Of a DNA stretch of 18,566 bases, positions 2,563 to 13,530 are shown piece by piece. The notes under the pieces are model-generated. The model made no database searches. It was not told the DNA's origin and was given only the letters and a program-made list of their open reading frames with translations. This DNA is from Fidelibacterota bacterium (lineage in GTDB: Bacteria > Fidelibacterota > Marinisomatia > Marinisomatales > UBA1611): NCBI GenBank assembly GCA_002717915.1, contig PBCV01000047.1, forward strand, positions 1-18,566. Direction: 5' to 3'. The position numbers and the translations under genes are program-made. The stretch's first letter is position 1. Each line of letters opens with the position of its first letter.

Positions 2563-3225
2563 ATGGCAAAAGTTGGAGTTGTATTAGCAGGCTGCGGCGC
2601 TCAGGATGGAGCTGAAATCCATGAATCGGTCATTACACTGCTTGCTTTAGACCGAGCCGGGGCTGAAGTGCAGATTATGGCGCCGGATATGGATCAGTTT
2701 CACGTGATCAATCATTTTAATGGAGACACCATGGAACCGGCCAGGAATATTCTTGTGGAAGCGTCCCGGATTGCCCGGGGCAATATTGTTCCAGCAGCCA
2801 CGGTGAGCGGGGACCAGTTCGACGCCTTGATTTTCCCGGGAGGAACCGGGATGGCAAAGAATATTTTTGACTATGCCATGACAGGGCCGGAATGCACCAT
2901 CATCAGCGATATAGAACGGCTGGTCCGGGAGATCATTGAAGCGGGCAAACCCCTAGGTGCTATCTGTATCGCACCGGTTATGGTTGCCAAAGTGCTCCAG
3001 AATATGGGCAGAGAGGGGAAAGTTACGGGCGGTTGTGATAAACAAATTACTGCGGATATACAATCCATGGGGATTGAAACGGAGCAGGCAGGTGCAGGAG
3101 ACATTGTGGTGGATGAAGAGAATAAGATCGTATCCACGCCCGCATACGTGGAAGCCAAATCCATCAAGGAAGCGGCGGAAGGCATTGAAAAACTGGTTGC
3201 CAGGGTTTTACAGTTGATTGGATGA
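2563..3225 (+). CDS. elbB: ElbB-type DJ-1/PfpI superfamily protein (glyoxalase-like)
   Basis: Protein of the ElbB/ES1 branch of the class I glutamine amidotransferase-like (DJ-1/PfpI) superfamily. E. coli ElbB has been linked to isoprenoid synthesis and shows glyoxalase activity; the physiological role remains unclear. Seen here: N-terminal VGVVLAGCGAQDGAEIHE with acidic E20, the family-specific MEPARNILVEASRIARGNI segment (57-75), FPGGTGMAKN (91-100), and the nucleophile elbow AICIAP with C135. The length (220) is normal for the family. A strong Shine-Dalgarno (AAGGAGAG) precedes the ATG. The 12-base gap to queG suggests co-transcription. Its stop is one base from the 3' end of the convergent barrel gene. 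Confidence 0.9.
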   Translation: MAKVGVVLAGCGAQDGAEIHESVITLLALDRAGAEVQIMAPDMDQFHVINHFNGDTMEPARNILVEASRIARGNIVPAATVSGDQFDALIFPGGTGMAKNIFDYAMTGPECTIISDIERLVREIIEAGKPLGAICIAPVMVAKVLQNMGREGKVTGGCDKQITADIQSMGIETEQAGAGDIVVDEENKIVSTPAYVEAKSIKEAAEGIEKLVARVLQLIG

Positions 3226-3226
3226 T

Positions 3227-4678
3227 CTAAAAATTATAATTAAAGCGGACGGTTGATTCTACAGGGTTTTTATCATCCAGGGCTCTGGCAACATTAAATC
3301 CAATCCCTAATCCATCTTTTTTACTGGTCCCAAAACCAAAGCCTGCTCCCTGGAGCATTTCAGCGGGTTGAGTGGATGGAGAGTACGCTTTTCCCCCATC
3401 ATAAAAAATTTTGAATAAAAAGCCTTTTTGGGTGAACTCTTCCGTAAAGACCAATTCCAAGTTGACCTGTTCCATAGTTGAACCGGACTGTATTTTATAC
3501 CTATGTCCACTCACCGACCCTAATCCGCCTACACCAAACATCCGGTATGCAGGTACCGCTTCCGAGCTCCTCCCGAGTATACCCCTGCCTCTAAAAATGA
3601 TCCCTTCAGACATTTCCCAACCGCCAAGGATCATGCTGAACAGCCTGAAATTTGGATCCGACAAACCATTCGATTTCAAGAGCCACTCAACTTCAGTTAA
3701 GACAGCAAACCCCGTGGAGACGGGGCTATATCCGGTCGTTCGGAAGGCAGCAGCACTGATTATAGATTCCATATCTCTATTTTCTGTAATCAGGTTGGAG
3801 CGTAAGGGTCTGTTGCTGTTTGTTAAGGACCACATTTCATTGGTTACTTGAATAGGGCTCCTATCAGCTTTGACATATCTTGTTTTTAGTTTTAATCGTT
3901 TAAAATTCAGGCTGAACCCGGCTTCCAACCCTGTTTCATCCCAACGATCGTAGAAATCCTGTCTGCCCAGCAGCCCTGCCCAGGTATTTTCAGACTCTGG
4001 TAGGCGCCATTCATCATCTGTCAGGGAGGTCTTAAATCCGCTGGTAAAAAGAGTAACATGCTGTTTGTTAAACAGTACAGCCTCCACGGTTGTTCGACCT
4101 ATAAACTCTTTGGATCCGAAACGATACCCAAATGAAAAACTCAGCCTGATCCTCGATTGATTGCCTCGGTCCCAATTCCAGTAAAGGGGTGCAAACCGAA
4201 GCCCCTCATTTCGATTGTAAGCAATAATACCGGGTTCCGTGTGGTACCATACATCTTTTCTCTGAAAAAAATCAGATTTTTCCTGGTCGTCCTTAATAGA
4301 TCGTGTGGAATCGGAAGATGTTTCCCTGTAGATGAGTCCCTGGTCCATACCCGCTTCTATGATCTTTCCTGTAATCTGAGCACTTGGATCCCTGTGGACT
4401 TCTCCGCCAATTGAAATAATGGTTCCGTTTATTATGGCGGAAGGGAAAATATGTATATCACCGCCAACTACAGTGATCTGACCTTCTACAGTACCGTAGA
4501 CATTAAGGCTGCCTCCAAGAATCCGGATCGTGTTTACCGACACCTGGGAAGAATCGATAGTAACGTCTGAATAGAGACGGATTTCGTTCGATGTTAAAGC
4601 AGTTGAATCCCCTGATGAAAGTTCACGTCCGAAAAGAAGTCCCTGTGTAAAGATTAAAACAGCAATACCGAATTTCAT
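3227..4678 (-). CDS. Outer-membrane protein: bactofilin-like beta-helix fused to Omp85-like barrel
   Basis: A 483-residue exported protein with no single family name I can give. Residues 1-17 are a probable signal peptide. Residues 33-109 form a run of short glycine-spaced strands (IRILGGSLNVYGTVEG, ITVVGGDIHI, IISIGGEVHRDPSA), the pattern of bactofilin/polymer-forming right-handed beta-helices. A hydrophilic linker (110-145) follows. From about 150 to the end, alternating amphipathic strands and aromatic belts suggest an outer-membrane beta-barrel. The last 100 residues match the C-terminal half of Omp85/BamA-type barrels: GSVSGHRY (387-394) in place of the loop-6 V/I-RG-F/Y motif, LELVFTEEF, IFYDGGKAY, GAGFGFGTS, and a terminal Phe. 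No POTRA domain is seen. It starts 3 bases after the DUF4097 gene stops, so the two are almost surely one operon. Confidence 0.75.
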   Translation of the reverse strand: MKFGIAVLIFTQGLLFGRELSSGDSTALTSNEIRLYSDVTIDSSQVSVNTIRILGGSLNVYGTVEGQITVVGGDIHIFPSAIINGTIISIGGEVHRDPSAQITGKIIEAGMDQGLIYRETSSDSTRSIKDDQEKSDFFQRKDVWYHTEPGIIAYNRNEGLRFAPLYWNWDRGNQSRIRLSFSFGYRFGSKEFIGRTTVEAVLFNKQHVTLFTSGFKTSLTDDEWRLPESENTWAGLLGRQDFYDRWDETGLEAGFSLNFKRLKLKTRYVKADRSPIQVTNEMWSLTNSNRPLRSNLITENRDMESIISAAAFRTTGYSPVSTGFAVLTEVEWLLKSNGLSDPNFRLFSMILGGWEMSEGIIFRGRGILGRSSEAVPAYRMFGVGGLGSVSGHRYKIQSGSTMEQVNLELVFTEEFTQKGFLFKIFYDGGKAYSPSTQPAEMLQGAGFGFGTSKKDGLGIGFNVARALDDKNPVESTVRFNYNF

Positions 4679-4681
4679 GGA

Positions 4682-5941
4682 TCAGTTCTGTTTAATCGTA
4701 ATGGACCCGTAATGGGCTGTCAGGAGCAGGGGGATGGTTCCTCCTTTAACGGTTCCGGTTCCTTTAACCGTGGAGCCCTTTGATGTGATCTTTAAGGGAA
4801 TTTCAGAATTCAGTTCTTTGGTTGAACCTGTACCATAAATGGTGCTTTCTATACTGACCGGAAGTCCTTTTGGAATGTGAACAATCAGGTCTCCAGCATC
4901 CGTTTCCATATTAAAACTGTAATCCTTTATGGATGAATCGTATGTTAAATCCAGGGAAATATTTCCAGCCGATGTGAACGCATCAACGCTTCCGATAACC
5001 TCCTCTAAAGAAATGTTACCTGCTGATGTGTTGCATTTCAACGATCCTTTACATAACACCGCATCGATATTCCCTCCGGATGTACTCAGATCTATATTCC
5101 CTTCAATATTATTCAGGTTTATGCCACCACCGGAAGTTTTTAGGGTGACCTTTGCTGAAATAACTTCAGCCTGGATATTTCCTCCTGAGGTTCGACAGGA
5201 TATTTCATCCCCTGTAATATGGTCTAACTCAATGGATCCTCCGCTGGTCTGGGCATCAATGCTGCCGTTTAAATCGCTGAAGCGAATGCTGCCTCCCTCG
5301 GTGGATGCATTAAATTGTCCCTGAGAATCCGAGATGCTGATATTTCCTCCGGATGAGTGAATCCGGATGAATCCTTCTGTTTCTGTTACAGTCATATTCC
5401 CACCGGATGTTTGCGATTCAATACGCCCCGCGAAGCTGGTGATAACCACATCCCCGCCCAGGGTGTTTAAAATATATTCTCCCTGCAGGTCTCTCAGGTC
5501 TATATCACCGCCCAATATTTCAAGGTTTATATTCACATTCCTGGGCAGGTTAAACTCAAGGGTATTTTCTATGGTTCGATCGTATTGCATCTTTTTTTCT
5601 GAACGGACACGGATCAGATATTCATCTTCCAGGTGAAAGACAGAGATTTTAGAATCGTTGATCACTCGTTTCGCTTTTTTTTCTGATAATCCATGGATGG
5701 TTTTTAAAATGATCAGTTGGGCACCGGATCCGTTATGTCCTCTTAGCGTGATATTACCATACACGTCTGCAATAGAGATCGTGTAGGATCCATCATCTGG
5801 CAGTTCATCAAAACGGTATGTTTCCCTGTTGCGGAACGAATGATTACTGTCTTTTTCAAATTCGGCATGGGTCAACTGCCCGTAAAGGAACACCGTTAAA
5901 TTGAAAAATAACAGTACGTATATTTTATTTATCCGAGTCAA
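4682..5941 (-). CDS. Exported DUF4097-type beta-solenoid protein
   Basis: A 419-residue protein with an N-terminal signal peptide (hydrophobic 7-21, likely cut near THAE). After a mixed N-terminal part, residues 142 to about 335 hold tandem 18-residue repeats of the form TSGGNIxLxxxxGxIxxx, about eleven copies. The last part (345-419) is again beta-rich. This is the DUF4097 family, predicted to fold as a beta-solenoid; no enzyme activity is known. The start is TTG at 5941: no ATG or GTG lies between it and the upstream in-frame stop, and the signal peptide follows at once, so I keep it with moderate confidence. It is the first gene of a pair with the beta-helix/barrel protein, suggesting a shared envelope role, either a surface-displayed solenoid or a periplasmic partner. 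Confidence 0.8.
   Translation of the reverse strand: MTRINKIYVLLFFNLTVFLYGQLTHAEFEKDSNHSFRNRETYRFDELPDDGSYTISIADVYGNITLRGHNGSGAQLIILKTIHGLSEKKAKRVINDSKISVFHLEDEYLIRVRSEKKMQYDRTIENTLEFNLPRNVNINLEILGGDIDLRDLQGEYILNTLGGDVVITSFAGRIESQTSGGNMTVTETEGFIRIHSSGGNISISDSQGQFNASTEGGSIRFSDLNGSIDAQTSGGSIELDHITGDEISCRTSGGNIQAEVISAKVTLKTSGGGINLNNIEGNIDLSTSGGNIDAVLCKGSLKCNTSAGNISLEEVIGSVDAFTSAGNISLDLTYDSSIKDYSFNMETDAGDLIVHIPKGLPVSIESTIYGTGSTKELNSEIPLKITSKGSTVKGTGTVKGGTIPLLLTAHYGSITIKQN
4937..5518 (-). repeat. About eleven tandem 54-bp coding repeats (18-residue solenoid units)
   Basis: Units begin at LGGDIDL, LGGDVVI, SGGNMTV, SGGNISI, EGGSIRF, SGGSIEL, SGGNIQA, SGGGINL, SGGNIDA, SAGNISL and SAGNISL. Spacing is 18 residues, with one unit of 19 at residues 232-250. 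The repeats are conserved at the protein level, mainly T-S-G-G-N-I, and more diverged in DNA, so they look old and selected, not freshly amplified. Confidence 0.85.
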
Positions 5942-5942
5942 C

Positions 5943-5972
5943 AGTATAGTTTTTAGTACCTGTAAAATTCAA
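5943..5972 (-). promoter_or_regulatory. Possible sigma-70-type promoter for the DUF4097 operon
   Basis: On the minus strand TTGAAT (5967-5972) and TATACT (5943-5948) are separated by 18 bases. The -10 lies one base before the TTG start, so transcription would begin at or just inside the coding region. Either the message is leaderless with a later start, or this is chance. Low confidence. Confidence 0.25.
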
Positions 5973-6040
5973 TTTACACCTAAATGAAAAACAAAAAAAG
6001 TTCCCGGATAGAGAGCTTATTTATGGGCGTGTGCCTGGCT

Positions 6041-6976
6041 TTACAGCCCAGTATCTGCTACGGTCTTTTTGACAGCATCTAAAGTGTTATTCAATTCGGT
6101 TTTTTCATCCTCAGTCAGGGAGAATTCCAGAACTTTTTCAACGCCTCCGGCACCGATCACGGTTGGAACACCGATGAAATAACCATCAATGCCAAACTCT
6201 CCTTCACAGAGAGAAGCACAGGGTATGACCCGCTTTTTATCCCGGATGTACGACTCTGCCATTTCGATGGCAGATTGGGCTGGTGCGTAAAAAGCAGAAC
6301 CGTTGCCAAATAATTTTACAATCTCTCCGCCTGCCACACGGGTTCTGTCTTCAATTTCCTTGAGCCGTTGAGCAGAAATAAGGTCTGTGACTGGTACACC
6401 GCCAATGGTTGCCAAGCGGGAAATGGGAACCATAGTATCGCCGTGGCCCCCCAGGACCATGCAGGTTACATCCTGGACGGAGAAACCGGTTTCCATAGCA
6501 ATAAAGGTTCGGAAACGGGCACTGTCCAGTGCTCCTGCCATGCCCACCACTTGGTTTTTTAGAAAGCCTGAAACCTTATAAAAGGCGTAGACCATGGCAT
6601 CCAGGGGGTTTGAAATCACAATCACAAATGCATTGGGAGCCTGCTCTTTAATATTAGTGGCTACATCTTTCATAATTCCCAGGTTTATGCCCAGGAGATC
6701 TTCCCGGTCCATACCCGGTTTTCTTGGGATGCCTGCGGTAATGATAAATACATCGGTATTTTTTGCATCCTTCCAGTCAGATGATCCTGTTATGGTTGAG
6801 TCGTAACCATCATGGGGACGGAGCTGCATCAGATCCAGGGCTTTCCCTTTGACCATACCTTCTGCTTTAGGGATGTCAAAAATGACCACGTCGCCTAATT
6901 CTTTCTGTGCCGCCAGCAGGGCCAGGTTCCCGCCGATTTGTCCGCCGCCAATCAATGTAATTTTTTTTCGAGCCAT
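6041..6976 (-). CDS. mdh: Malate dehydrogenase (LDH-like, type 3)
   Basis: NAD-dependent malate dehydrogenase, converting malate to oxaloacetate in the TCA cycle; cytoplasmic. The 311-residue form starts MARKKITLIGGGQIGG, a Rossmann GxGxxG-type loop, followed by the acidic D34 that favours NAD. The substrate loop PRKPGMDRED carries R85 and R91, where Arg in place of Gln selects malate over lactate. D151 and R154 (DSARFR) and catalytic H178 (GGHGDTMVP) complete the site. I chose ATG at 6976 over an in-frame ATG at 7000 because an AAGGGGA Shine-Dalgarno sits five bases before 6976. The longer start would also lie in the terminator of the preceding ribosomal-protein operon, and family members start at this MARKK. 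Confidence 0.95.
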   Translation of the reverse strand: MARKKITLIGGGQIGGNLALLAAQKELGDVVIFDIPKAEGMVKGKALDLMQLRPHDGYDSTITGSSDWKDAKNTDVFIITAGIPRKPGMDREDLLGINLGIMKDVATNIKEQAPNAFVIVISNPLDAMVYAFYKVSGFLKNQVVGMAGALDSARFRTFIAMETGFSVQDVTCMVLGGHGDTMVPISRLATIGGVPVTDLISAQRLKEIEDRTRVAGGEIVKLFGNGSAFYAPAQSAIEMAESYIRDKKRVIPCASLCEGEFGIDGYFIGVPTVIGAGGVEKVLEFSLTEDEKTELNNTLDAVKKTVADTGL

Positions 6977-9546: not shown

Positions 9547-10176
9547 ATGAAAATTCGCCCCCTCACACGCCTTATATTTTTTAGTTGGTTTACCATTGTG
9601 ATAGGTTTTTCCAGATCTGAAAATATTGCCTTATGCACTGAGACCCATGGGGTGGTCCAGCGCAAAGGGAACGTTCGTAATGGTATAGTTCGAAAAGGTG
9701 ACCCCATCTACCACGGCGATAAACTTATCACAGGAGAAGATGGATTTGTATCCTTTATGAATATATACGAAAAAACCATTGTGAAAGTCTATGAGAATTC
9801 TTTTGTGAAAGTTCTTAGCAACAGGAAAAGTAGGTTTTCCCGTTCCGAATTAGCACTCTTTGGGGGCAAGGTTATTGTGGAAATGGATGAGCAAAATGAC
9901 CGGGAGTTTGTTTTAAGATCGCCTTCCGCAATCGCAACTGCATCTGGCACTCATTTTTTGACAGAATACAGGGATGAACTGCTCTATAATAATCTGTCCT
10001 ATTGTATTTTTACAGTTCTTACTGGAAAAATGGAAGTGGAAAATATAAAGTCAGGGCATTCCATATTCATGGATCAGGGAGAAACAGTTATTTCAACCCG
10101 GGAAGGGAAATTTCTGCTGTTGGATACATTCAGAGATAATTCAGGCATCGCAAATACATTAATGGAAGCTAATTAG
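9547..10176 (+). CDS. Exported FecR-domain protein
   Basis: A 209-residue protein with a signal peptide (positively charged MKIRPLTR, hydrophobic to about 20, cut near FSRS). The rest is a FecR-type beta domain: GVVQRKG, RKGDPIYHGDKLITGEDGF, the SFVKVLSN segment, ELALFGGKVIVEMD, SPSAIATASGTHFLTEY and TVLTGKMEV, then DQGETVIST. In FecR proper this domain is the periplasmic part of an anti-sigma factor. Here there is no N-terminal anti-sigma domain, no internal transmembrane helix after the signal, and no sigma factor next door. A stand-alone periplasmic sensor or carbohydrate/ligand-binding role is as likely. No Shine-Dalgarno is seen. The next gene starts six bases later, so they are probably co-transcribed. 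Confidence 0.82.
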   Translation: MKIRPLTRLIFFSWFTIVIGFSRSENIALCTETHGVVQRKGNVRNGIVRKGDPIYHGDKLITGEDGFVSFMNIYEKTIVKVYENSFVKVLSNRKSRFSRSELALFGGKVIVEMDEQNDREFVLRSPSAIATASGTHFLTEYRDELLYNNLSYCIFTVLTGKMEVENIKSGHSIFMDQGETVISTREGKFLLLDTFRDNSGIANTLMEAN

Positions 10177-10913: not shown

Positions 10914-11381
10914 ATGAAAAAATATATTATCAATATAAATGGCGAGAGAAAGGGCATCACCATAGATGGAGAAACACCACTTCTCTGGGTAATCCGTGAT
11001 GAATTAAAATTGACCGGTACCAAATTTGGGTGTGGAAGGGGTCTATGCGGTGCATGCACTATCCACATCGATGGTGAAGAGACCCGATCCTGTATAACAC
11101 CCATAGAAAACGCAGATGGTTTGAAGATCACCACCATAGAAGGTTTATCTGAAAACTCCAGCCATCCACTGCAGAAGGCCTGGATAGCTGAAGATGTCCC
11201 CCAATGTGGGTACTGCCAATCAGGACAAATCATGACTGCTGCTGCATTATTATCCAGGAACCCAGATCCAGACGAGGATGATGTGAATTCAGCCATGAGG
11301 ATGAATATCTGCAGGTGCGGTACGTATAATCGGATTCGCAAAGGGATCATGGTCGCAGCAAAAGAGATGAAAAATGGCTGA
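10914..11381 (+). CDS. Molybdenum hydroxylase small subunit, two [2Fe-2S] clusters (IorA-like)
   Basis: Electron-transfer subunit of a xanthine oxidase-family enzyme. The 155-residue product has the plant-type ferredoxin cluster C40/C45/C48/C60 in [18 protein letters not shown], and the second cluster C98/C101/C133/C135 (QCGYCQSGQ and NICRCGTY). [21 protein letters not shown] is the pattern of the isoquinoline 1-oxidoreductase alpha-type small subunits, not of three-subunit xanthine dehydrogenases. It has no signal peptide, while its partner has a Tat signal, so it would be exported, if at all, bound to the large subunit. It overlaps the large-subunit gene by 8 bases (translational coupling). 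No Shine-Dalgarno is visible; the leader is AT-rich. Confidence 0.92.
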
Positions 11382-13530
11382 AAAAGTATTCATCAATCGT
11401 CGGGATTTCATAAAAACCATATCTACAGCCGGTGCTGGGCTTACCCTTGGGTTTTATTTACCATTTAAGGATAGGCTACGGGCAGAAGTCTCTAGATCCA
11501 CAGTGGACTTTGTACCAAATATTTGGGTAAGCGTGAATCCAAACAGCCAGGTTACACTAACCGTCAGTGAGTCAGAAATGGGACAGGGTGTCTGGACGTC
11601 GCTCCCTATGATTATTGCTGAAGAAATGGAATTGGATTGGACAAAAGTCAAAGTGGTTCAAGCGCCAGTTGATGAAAACTACTTTGGAAGGTTTGATATG
11701 GGTACAGGAGGAAGTTCATCCATACGGACATCCTGGGATAAAATGAGAAAAGCAGGTGCGGTAGCTAAAGATATGCTGCATGAAGCTGCAACAATTGAAT
11801 GGTCAGTATCCAAAGCAGATTGCTTTGCAGAAAATGGATTTATTGTTCACCGTTTAACAGGGGAAAAGATCAGTTATGGTGATCTGGCACATAAAGCGTC
11901 TATGCTGGATGTACCGAAAAGTGTCCAACTTAAAAACCCTGACACGTTTCGTATTATTGGAACAGATATATTAAGAACAGATGCTCCACTGAAAGTAAAT
12001 GGGACTGCGCAGTACGCAATGGATGTGAATCTTCCGGATATGATGTATGCATCTGTCGAACGCTGTCCTTATTTTGGCGGCAAATTAAAAACAGTAGATG
12101 ATAGAGATTCAAAGAAGGTAAAGGGCGTGTTGGATATTATTGAAATTGAAAACGGTTTCGCTGTTGTTGGAACATCTACCTGGGCAGCGCTACAGGGAAG
12201 AAAAAAATTAAAAATTACGTGGGACAAGGGGTCAAACAAATATCCAGATAGTAAATCCATATCTGAATTCTTCAAAAAACGAAGCAGGAAACGAGGTGCA
12301 AAGGGTAGAAATGAAGGAAATGTTAAAAAAGTCCTAAAAGATGCGGATCGAGTTATAGAGGCAGCATACGAAGTTCCTTTCCAGGCTCATGCGACCATGG
12401 AGCCTATGAACTGTGTTGTAGATTATCAATCAGATCAGTGTCAGGTTTGGGCACCGACACAGTCGCCAAAAGACGCTAAAAAGAGGGTCAGAGAAATGAC
12501 AGGGTTGTCAGATGAAAAAGTCATAATCCATGTGCCTTTTCTGGGTGGTGGATTTGGCAGACGTGCCTTTAATGATTTTATCGAGGAAGGTGTAGAAGTA
12601 TCAATGAAACTGAAGAAACCTGTCAAATTGATCTGGACGAGAGAAGACGACATGCAGCATGATTACTACCGGCCTGCCAGTCGCCATGTATTGAAGGCAG
12701 GCCTAATGGACAATGGAGAAACGATCGCCTGGTTTCACAGTGTTGTGGCCCCATCCATATTCTTTGGTCAAATGTTTAAATACCCGGTTCCATTTAAGGA
12801 TAAGCTGGATGTAGTCGCATTGGCTGGAGCAAAGGAGGTTGCTTATGGGATCCCTAATATCCGTGTGGAATACACGTCGGCGAATACAGATATCCCGGTT
12901 GGCTGGTGGCGTTCAGTTTATGATTCTCAAAATGCCTATGCTAATGAATGTTTCATTGATGAATTAGCTAACAGCCTGAAGATTGACCCGGTAGACTACC
13001 GCCTTAGACTGCTGAAACAATCACCTCGTCATACGGCAGTATTAAAACAAGCCGCTCAGGAATCAGACTGGGGCAAGCCTCTTAAAAATAATCATCATCA
13101 GGGCGTATCATGCCACGCATCCTTTGGCACCTATGTTGCTCAGATCGCTGAAGTTTCCGTGAATAATGAGGGCAATGTTCATGTTCACCGGGTTGTATGC
13201 GCAGTGGACTGTGGACAGGCAGTGAGTCCCATAACCATAAAAGCCCAGATGGAAGGATCTATCGTGTATGGCCTTTCGGCAACATTAAATGGGGAAATCA
13301 CAATAGAAAATGGTGCAGTGAAACAGAGTAATTTCCATGACTTTCAAGTTCTTAGGATGGATCAGATGCCAACCATTGACGTGCACATCATAAAAAGTTC
13401 AGAACCACCGAGTGGTATTGGCGAGCCAGGCTTGCCTCCAATAGCTCCCGCAGTTGCGAATGCGGTTTTTTCTGCAACGGGAAAGCGAATTCGTAAGCTG
13501 CCCATTAAAGCTGAAGATTTCCTGGCTTAA
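11374..13530 (+). CDS. Molybdenum hydroxylase large subunit, Tat-exported (IorB-like)
   Basis: Molybdopterin-binding catalytic subunit of the xanthine oxidase family, which hydroxylates N-heterocycles or aldehydes with water as oxygen source. The 718-residue product opens with a twin-arginine signal (NRRDFIKT, R9/R10, then a hydrophobic stretch to about 28), so it acts in the periplasm. Then come the [23 protein letters not shown] segment, the a/b hammerhead part (about 205-295), and the cofactor motif GGGFGRR (391-397). The C-terminal [19 protein letters not shown] carries E684, the expected catalytic Glu. This layout fits IorB, single-chain with duplicated halves. No FAD or cytochrome subunit and no MoCo-maturation gene lies in the window, so electron acceptor and substrate are unknown; isoquinoline is only the name of the prototype substrate. 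Confidence 0.92.

Follow-up and report, generated by a model that had tools for sequence, protein, structure and literature searches.

A toastrack and Omp85-like gene pair of Neomarinimicrobiota as probable effectors of an ECF-sigma-controlled envelope-stress operon

The gene pair and its surroundings

The window, i.e., the whole stretch of DNA analyzed here, comprises 18,566 nucleotides of contig PBCV01000047.1. Two neighboring genes on its minus strand encode a DUF4097-like solenoid protein and an Omp85-like barrel protein, and the coordinates, strand and 3-base gap assigned to them in an earlier sequence-only reading are exact. The features of the locus are:

3227..4678, minus strand, POTRA-less Omp85-like outer-membrane protein (ORF, 483 aa)
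3392..3406, minus strand, FxDxG motif FYDGG, residues 425-429 of the barrel protein, in predicted strand 13
3497..3520, minus strand, L6 signature region GSVSGHRY, residues 387-394, with Ser for the arginine of (V/I)RG(Y/F)
4352..4588, minus strand, bactofilin-like beta-helix, residues 31-109 of the barrel protein (model DSSP, invariant glycines, Pfam)
4682..5941, minus strand, DUF4097-like (toastrack) beta-solenoid protein (ORF, 419 aa, TTG start)
5943..5972, minus strand, putative sigma-70-type promoter TTGAAT-18-TATACT before the DUF4097 gene (9/12 positions match)

The pair is flanked by an mdh-like gene (assigned by eye) and a DJ-1/PfpI-family gene (assigned with Pfam). Chance ORFs are excluded as an explanation because both ORFs are conserved. 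Both proteins have hydrophobic N-termini, from which the DUF4097 protein is probably exported. Sigma-70-type sites number 8 in positions 3100-6200 against 5.9 expected in shuffles, so the putative TTGAAT-18-TATACT promoter is weakly supported.

Structure of the DUF4097 protein

The proposal that this protein contains about eleven 18-residue repeats is borne out by the spacing of its GG pairs (144, 162, 180, 198, 216, 234, 253, 271, and 289, with degenerate units onward to ~340) and by lag-18 identity, which over residues 121-335 reaches 0.305 against a shuffle maximum of 0.152 (n=2000). An AlphaFold2 model made with 45 sequences (mean pLDDT 92) is almost all beta and, judged from the strand pattern, is predicted to be a single long solenoid. 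The Pfam family Toastrack DUF4097 (PF13349) matches 21 of the 45 aligned sequences at E <= 0.01 (best 2.4e-22), the window copy not among them, while NCBIfam LiaG matches the window protein at 4.5e-10, far under its cut-off. Foldseek places 4qrk first among PDB entries (E 9e-7, the sole match below 0.001), followed by 4opw, 3pet, 3lyc, and 3ljy; 4QRK and 4OPW are the toastrack examples given in the main text of PMC11237479. These matches have low TM scores (0.16-0.46), and in VIA-align the top ranks go to generic beta-helices such as tailspikes and epimerases, ahead of 3ljy. The toastrack name therefore rests mainly on Pfam matches in relatives, and the function of the protein cannot be named from its fold alone. 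A Pfam scan for a TPS domain returned no such family at E <= 1.

Structure of the barrel protein

The model of the 483-aa protein (mean pLDDT 79) has residues 31-109 folded into short beta rungs and residues 111-142 as a linker of low confidence; 16 strands in a BamA/TamA fold were counted from model DSSP at 152-478. The best fold matches of the barrel are BamA, TamA, and SAM barrels, and every one of the 50 rows from VIA-align bears a title naming BAM/BamA, TamA, SAM or TOC. Among 36 aligned barrel sequences (A1), Pfam at E <= 0.01 finds Omp85 in 15, Bactofilin (PF04519) in 10 (best 1.5e-4), and DUF5686 in 9; the window copy scores 0.063 for Bactofilin and 3.2e-4, under the cut-off, for DUF5686. 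The 16-strand Omp85-type barrel and the Omp85-style C-terminal half of the sequence-only reading are thus upheld, with GSVSGHRY at 387, DGGKAY at 427, and Phe as the last residue.

The two signature motifs, as defined in a passage of PMC4490367, differ in their conservation. The L6 (V/I)RG(Y/F) motif is absent from the window copy (GSVSG), and its arginine is found in 0/36 A1 sequences and in 11/17 deeper A3 sequences. FYDGG fits the strand-13 motif (F/G)xDxG and falls within model strand 421-432; a loose (F/G)xDxG occurs in the last 110 residues of 35/36 (A1) and 14/20 (A3) sequences, and N or E replaces the D in some relatives.

A bactofilin-like beta-helix ahead of the barrel, in the place of POTRA, had likewise been proposed, and residues 31-109 are indeed modeled as one. 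In the window sequence alone its 18-residue period is not significant (282/2000 shuffles reach it) and lag 19 identity exceeds lag 18; the assignment is made because of the model, the glycines of the region, which are invariant across all 36 sequences, and the Bactofilin matches in 10 of them. No POTRA family was matched in Pfam scans of the window copy and the 36 aligned sequences. The A1 profile retrieved a lone match from PDB sequences, a scaffold protein at E 0.066, which was taken as chance.

Could the barrel be a specialized insertase or an assembly factor for lipids or outer-membrane proteins, performing stress repair in the manner of TamA with the solenoids as periplasmic holders? We regard this as possible but rather unlikely. 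Its closest folds are those of BamA, TamA, and SAM, and the predicted regulon described below includes CBM9-domain proteins that are probably located in the outer membrane; however, no POTRA was detected, the L6 arginine is missing in 36/36 A1 sequences, and the other Omp85-family proteins of the window's genome (G000) may already perform such a task.

Six further Omp85-family (PF01103) matches occur in G000 (C8, C4, C28, C9, C10, C29), among them a possible BamA, an open frame of 812 aa. Elsewhere, two proteins of ~298 aa (L028:1417-2313, L027:1396-2289) place a similar bactofilin-like beta-helix before several hydrophobic TM-like stretches, as judged by eye, and the module may therefore be used in the inner membrane too.

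Conservation of the pair and a five-gene operon in relatives

A first survey covered 61 relatives, and in 24 of the 25 with a full-length barrel DUF4097 adjoins it. A barrel-profile scan of 245 genomes of the phylum matched 87 and left 158 without a match. Loci were examined in 76 of the 87, of which 45 belong to the window's order and have a full-length barrel, the other 31 being deeper; partial, helix-only or weak matches (G010, G044, G055, G084, G085, G153, G155, G157, G194, G228, G229) were left out of the locus set. DUF4097 lies beside the barrel in 40/45 order loci and 25/31 deeper loci, so the adjacency anticipated from the window is conserved, within one phylum. A contig scan beyond the phylum gave 28 loci, from close relatives alone (titled Marinimicrobia or Neomarinimicrobiota, one “FCB group”), and a protein search with A3 picked out 19 of 7996 scored candidates, DUF5686 relatives included.

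In many of these relatives the pair belongs to a five-gene operon with an ECF sigma/anti-sigma pair and a promoter motif, which went unnoticed in the sequence-only reading. The genes run ECF sigma, anti-sigma, DUF4097, barrel, LiaF-like toastrack, with median gaps of -8, -4, 3, and 1 bases at the loci of the window's order, and the complete ordered set is present at 30/45 order loci and 13/31 deeper loci. Ten more deep loci hold the first four genes, the contig ending after the barrel in four (L120, L129, L184, L189). Pfam on representatives identifies Sigma70 regions in 2/2 sigmas, HEAT repeats in the C-terminal half of 3/3 scanned anti-sigma proteins, and LiaF-like_C in 3/3 operon LiaF-like proteins (one under the cut-off). 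A hydropathy script finds a single TM-like stretch, starting at residues 63-108, in 9/9 anti-sigma proteins checked, and the HEAT part would lie outside the membrane. The operon is lacking from six deep loci, of which two are contig-edge fragments (L191, L192) and four are solo Omp85-like barrels of ~390 aa (L133:3800-4972, L134:6018-7181, L138:5521-6687, L193:5009-6181); those of L133, L134, and L138 adjoin an rRNA dimethyltransferase-like gene (ksgA-like, by eye).

The two effectors are also found apart. No intact DUF4097 neighbor is present at 5/45 order loci with a barrel, and 22 of the 46 DUF4097-matched genomes have no full-length barrel match (one of the 22 being a 49-residue contig-edge piece and two being weak matches), from which it follows that the effectors are not strictly interdependent. 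At 12 barrel-less loci in the window's family, DUF4097 occupies the same place behind the mdh-like gene with another gene next to it.

These losses bear directly on the earlier suggestion that the pair is a passenger and its outer-membrane partner, in which the barrel would export the DUF4097 solenoid or display it on the surface and the beta-helix would dock it in place of POTRA. The genes are adjacent, an Omp85 barrel is present, and both proteins contain beta-helices. However, the losses are uncoupled in both directions, the next gene differs at the 12 barrel-less loci, no TPS domain was detected, and the sigma, anti-sigma, and second toastrack of the operon are left unexplained. On these grounds it is rejected as the main reading and considered very improbable.

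Promoter motif and predicted regulon

The motif GACAAC-N17/18-GTC has the shape of an ECF promoter. It occurs upstream of the sigma gene at 46/53 loci (counting loci whose sigma score exceeds 150 and whose upstream stretch is distinct), against a shuffle mean of 0.2 and maximum of 3 (n=200), which implies that the sigma is autoregulated. When the pattern is tightened to TGACAACY-N16/17-GTCNWA, the 30 sigma-bearing genomes yield 88 sites against 21 for a reversed-pattern control, and the 22 genomes without intact sigma yield 5 against 18 for the control; the p value for this comparison disregards genome relatedness, the 30 include G007, whose sigma gene is presumed to lie past a contig edge, and the 22 were judged from the locus, G019 and G051 solely from a missing anti-sigma match.

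By our own count the operon's own promoter accounts for 23 of the 88 sites, leaving 65 non-operon sites; among the 5 in genomes lacking intact sigma, the one at G129:C36 once served the operon as its promoter. All 69 non-operon sites were examined and merging of identical motif sequences reduced them to 67, sigma-less genomes contributing three of these (L282, L284, L285). At 40/67 merged sites an ORF of >= 60 aa starts -8 to 70 bp downstream, and 4 sites lie inside an ORF. With 21 control sites beside 65 non-operon sites, some must be chance. Other ECF sigmas exist, G000 holding one at 27 percent identity, and they may also read the motif.

The genes behind the motif include those for CBM9-domain proteins (15 in 15 genomes), Yip1 (11 in 11 genomes), PspC (4 genomes), and toastracks (5 genomes), together with three M1-like peptidases, pairs of PD40, TldD, membrane-fusion-like and ferredoxin-type genes, and 11 singletons. 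Three of the toastracks (G043, G053, G060) are related to the window DUF4097 and were also matched by the DUF4097 search; two contain DUF2807. Pfam on ten representatives gives CBM9_1, Yip1, PspC, DUF4097, DUF2807, PD40, PmbA/TldD, and 4Fe-4S families above the cut-off and Peptidase_M1 under it, with no family matched for L263; the membrane-fusion label was assigned by eye. For most CBM9, Yip1, and M1 genes the start lies no more than ~50 bp from the motif, and PspC (181-310 bp) and two toastracks (165-167 bp) start far from it for a promoter. The extended PSP network includes PspC and toastracks, and the HAAS domain has been likened to the Yip1 family, in the main text of PMC11237479; the link to this network emerged from the motif scan and was not an input to it.

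Loss of the regulators in the window's lineage

The window copy lacks the sigma, anti-sigma, and LiaF-like genes. In G000, which is 72 percent complete, LiaF-like and anti-sigma searches gave no match, the sigma search returned the distant ECF sigma alone, and TGACAACY-N16/17-GTCNWA has 0 matches; nor is there an ECF motif before the window DUF4097 gene. In the sister genus, the complete set of five stands at L032 and L033, following the mdh-like gene known from the window, L031 has sigma and anti-sigma fused in one 259-aa ORF, and L182 begins within the anti-sigma at a contig edge. An assembly artefact is unlikely to account for the missing regulators, because the mdh-like and DJ-1/PfpI genes flank the window pair and L032 and L033 hold the five genes behind that same mdh-like gene.

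Pair-alone loci also occur in family f7 (L159, L162, L163, L174), where L144 retains sigma and anti-sigma remnants. On the barrel tree the pair state requires at least three changes and the barrel-only state at least four, where L175, L176, and L182, cut off by a contig edge before sigma, are coded as full operon, and L144 and L150, which keep regulator remnants, are coded as pair; the three pair-state changes may comprise one regain along with losses. At L153 (G129:C36, 4545-4841; apparently the same record as L042, 5470-5766) a 98-aa ORF has a sigma-like start and a DUF4097-like end, and an internal deletion seems to have taken the rest of the sigma, the anti-sigma, and most of DUF4097, with the barrel behind them intact. 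At G055:C93:4114-5972 and G044:C13:191549-193413 the anti-sigma adjoins the LiaF-like gene, with no DUF4097 or barrel between.

FecA/FecR/FecI surface signaling links an outer-membrane protein, an anti-sigma, and an ECF sigma. A comparable sensor, in which the barrel reads the state of the outer membrane and the beta-helix and toastracks pass this signal on to the HEAT domain, would account for the operon linkage of the barrel to the sigma and anti-sigma genes and for the conserved promoter. However, the pair survives loss of sigma and anti-sigma in the window and at the four f7 loci, and so acts without them, and in G044 and G055, where the anti-sigma adjoins the LiaF-like gene, no full-length barrel was matched. 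Persistence of the pair without sigma indicates that it is useful by itself and counts against a pure sensor role, and this alternative is judged unlikely.

Proposed role of the pair

With its regulators gone, what would the pair do? The five-gene operon with a stress sigma factor in many relatives suggests that it helps to guard the cell envelope. We consider it fairly probable that, in the phylum Neomarinimicrobiota, these two genes supply the effector core of an envelope-stress operon under ECF sigma control, and that the regulators of this operon were lost in the window's lineage. The anti-sigma HEAT domain, together with the toastracks, would sense envelope damage on the outer side of the inner membrane; the sigma would then be freed and would switch on its own operon through the TGACAAC-N17/18-GTC promoter along with Yip1, PspC, other toastracks, and exported CBM9-domain proteins. 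The barrel in the outer membrane and the solenoid in the periplasm, which may be in contact, would most likely be an assembly or stabilizing factor and its scaffold. The lineage of the window would have lost sigma, anti-sigma, and LiaF-like gene and kept the two effectors. The predicted positions are those that such a circuit needs, with a switch in the cytoplasm, the anti-sigma in the inner membrane, solenoids outside it, and a barrel in the outer membrane, and the promoter motif is one that families of the envelope-stress response share.

Toastracks have been proposed as scaffolds of stress-signaling complexes, with an operon-linked sigma in one toastrack context, in the main text of PMC11237479. 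They are predicted there to be intracellular, whereas those described here look exported, which counts against the effector-core explanation. So do the separate occurrence of the two effectors and the 158 of 245 genomes without a barrel match. A more tentative extension, given low confidence, is a diderm outer-membrane branch of Lia/PSP. In it the POTRA-less barrel, its lid-lock arginine lost, would monitor the outer membrane, and exported toastracks stacked against the beta-helix would relay what it senses to the anti-sigma HEAT domain, the system having spread through the phylum and been dismantled piecemeal in reduced lineages.

Relation to known systems

LiaG is a DUF4097 protein and LiaF a DUF2154 toastrack. 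As in LiaIFGSR and PSP systems, DUF4097 and LiaF-like toastracks here share an operon with a transcriptional switch, and PspC, Yip1, and more toastracks lie behind the operon's motif; however, the toastracks look exported, ECF sigma/anti-sigma replaces LiaRS, and an Omp85-like barrel is part of the operon. The likeness to FecA/FecR/FecI is in the linkage of outer-membrane protein, anti-sigma, and ECF sigma, and the differences are an Omp85-like barrel instead of a TonB-dependent receptor, HEAT repeats, and toastracks in the operon. Two-partner secretion (TpsA/TpsB) similarly sets a beta-helix protein beside an Omp85-superfamily barrel, but here no POTRA or TPS domain was detected and DUF4097 often occurs without the barrel.

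The “noNterm” class of Omp85 proteins was reportedly described by Heinz and Lithgow in 2014. Its members, POTRA-less according to a passage of PMC4104836, share an Omp85-type barrel with the window protein, which differs in its bactofilin-like beta-helix, the loss of the L6 arginine, and the sigma operon of its relatives. DUF5686 (PF18939) proteins align in the barrel part (A1 against P0135, prob 74, E 2.7e-5) and differ in the N-terminal domain, P0135 bearing PF13715. We take PF13715 to be a CarboxypepD_reg-like domain.

Taken one by one, the elements have precedents, namely stress operons with ECF sigmas, toastracks (with sigma factors near some of them, according to PMC11237479), and Omp85 proteins that lack POTRA. 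The terms “outer membrane,” “Omp85,” and “ECF” are absent from the main text of that paper, and the operon combination, the beta-helix-fronted barrel, the L6 arginine loss, and the phylum regulon did not turn up among the titles and abstracts listed from open-licence PMC. The operon unites Omp85 barrels, PSP/Lia toastracks, and ECF sigma circuits, which are usually treated separately. It suggests a role, open to experiment, for DUF4097 and for Omp85 proteins without POTRA, and leads to the prediction of an envelope-stress regulon in a phylum from which a species has now been cultured (PMC11652737).

Other genes in the window

Three further observations were made in the window. A single ORF at 198-974 appears by eye to encode a membrane acyltransferase-like and then a PDZ-like segment. 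A FecR-domain protein with a hydrophobic start is encoded at 9547-10176 (Pfam FecR E 3e-5). Positions 10914-13530 encode what by eye is a two-subunit molybdenum hydroxylase-like oxidoreductase, consisting of a [2Fe-2S] subunit and a large subunit that has a Tat-like start.
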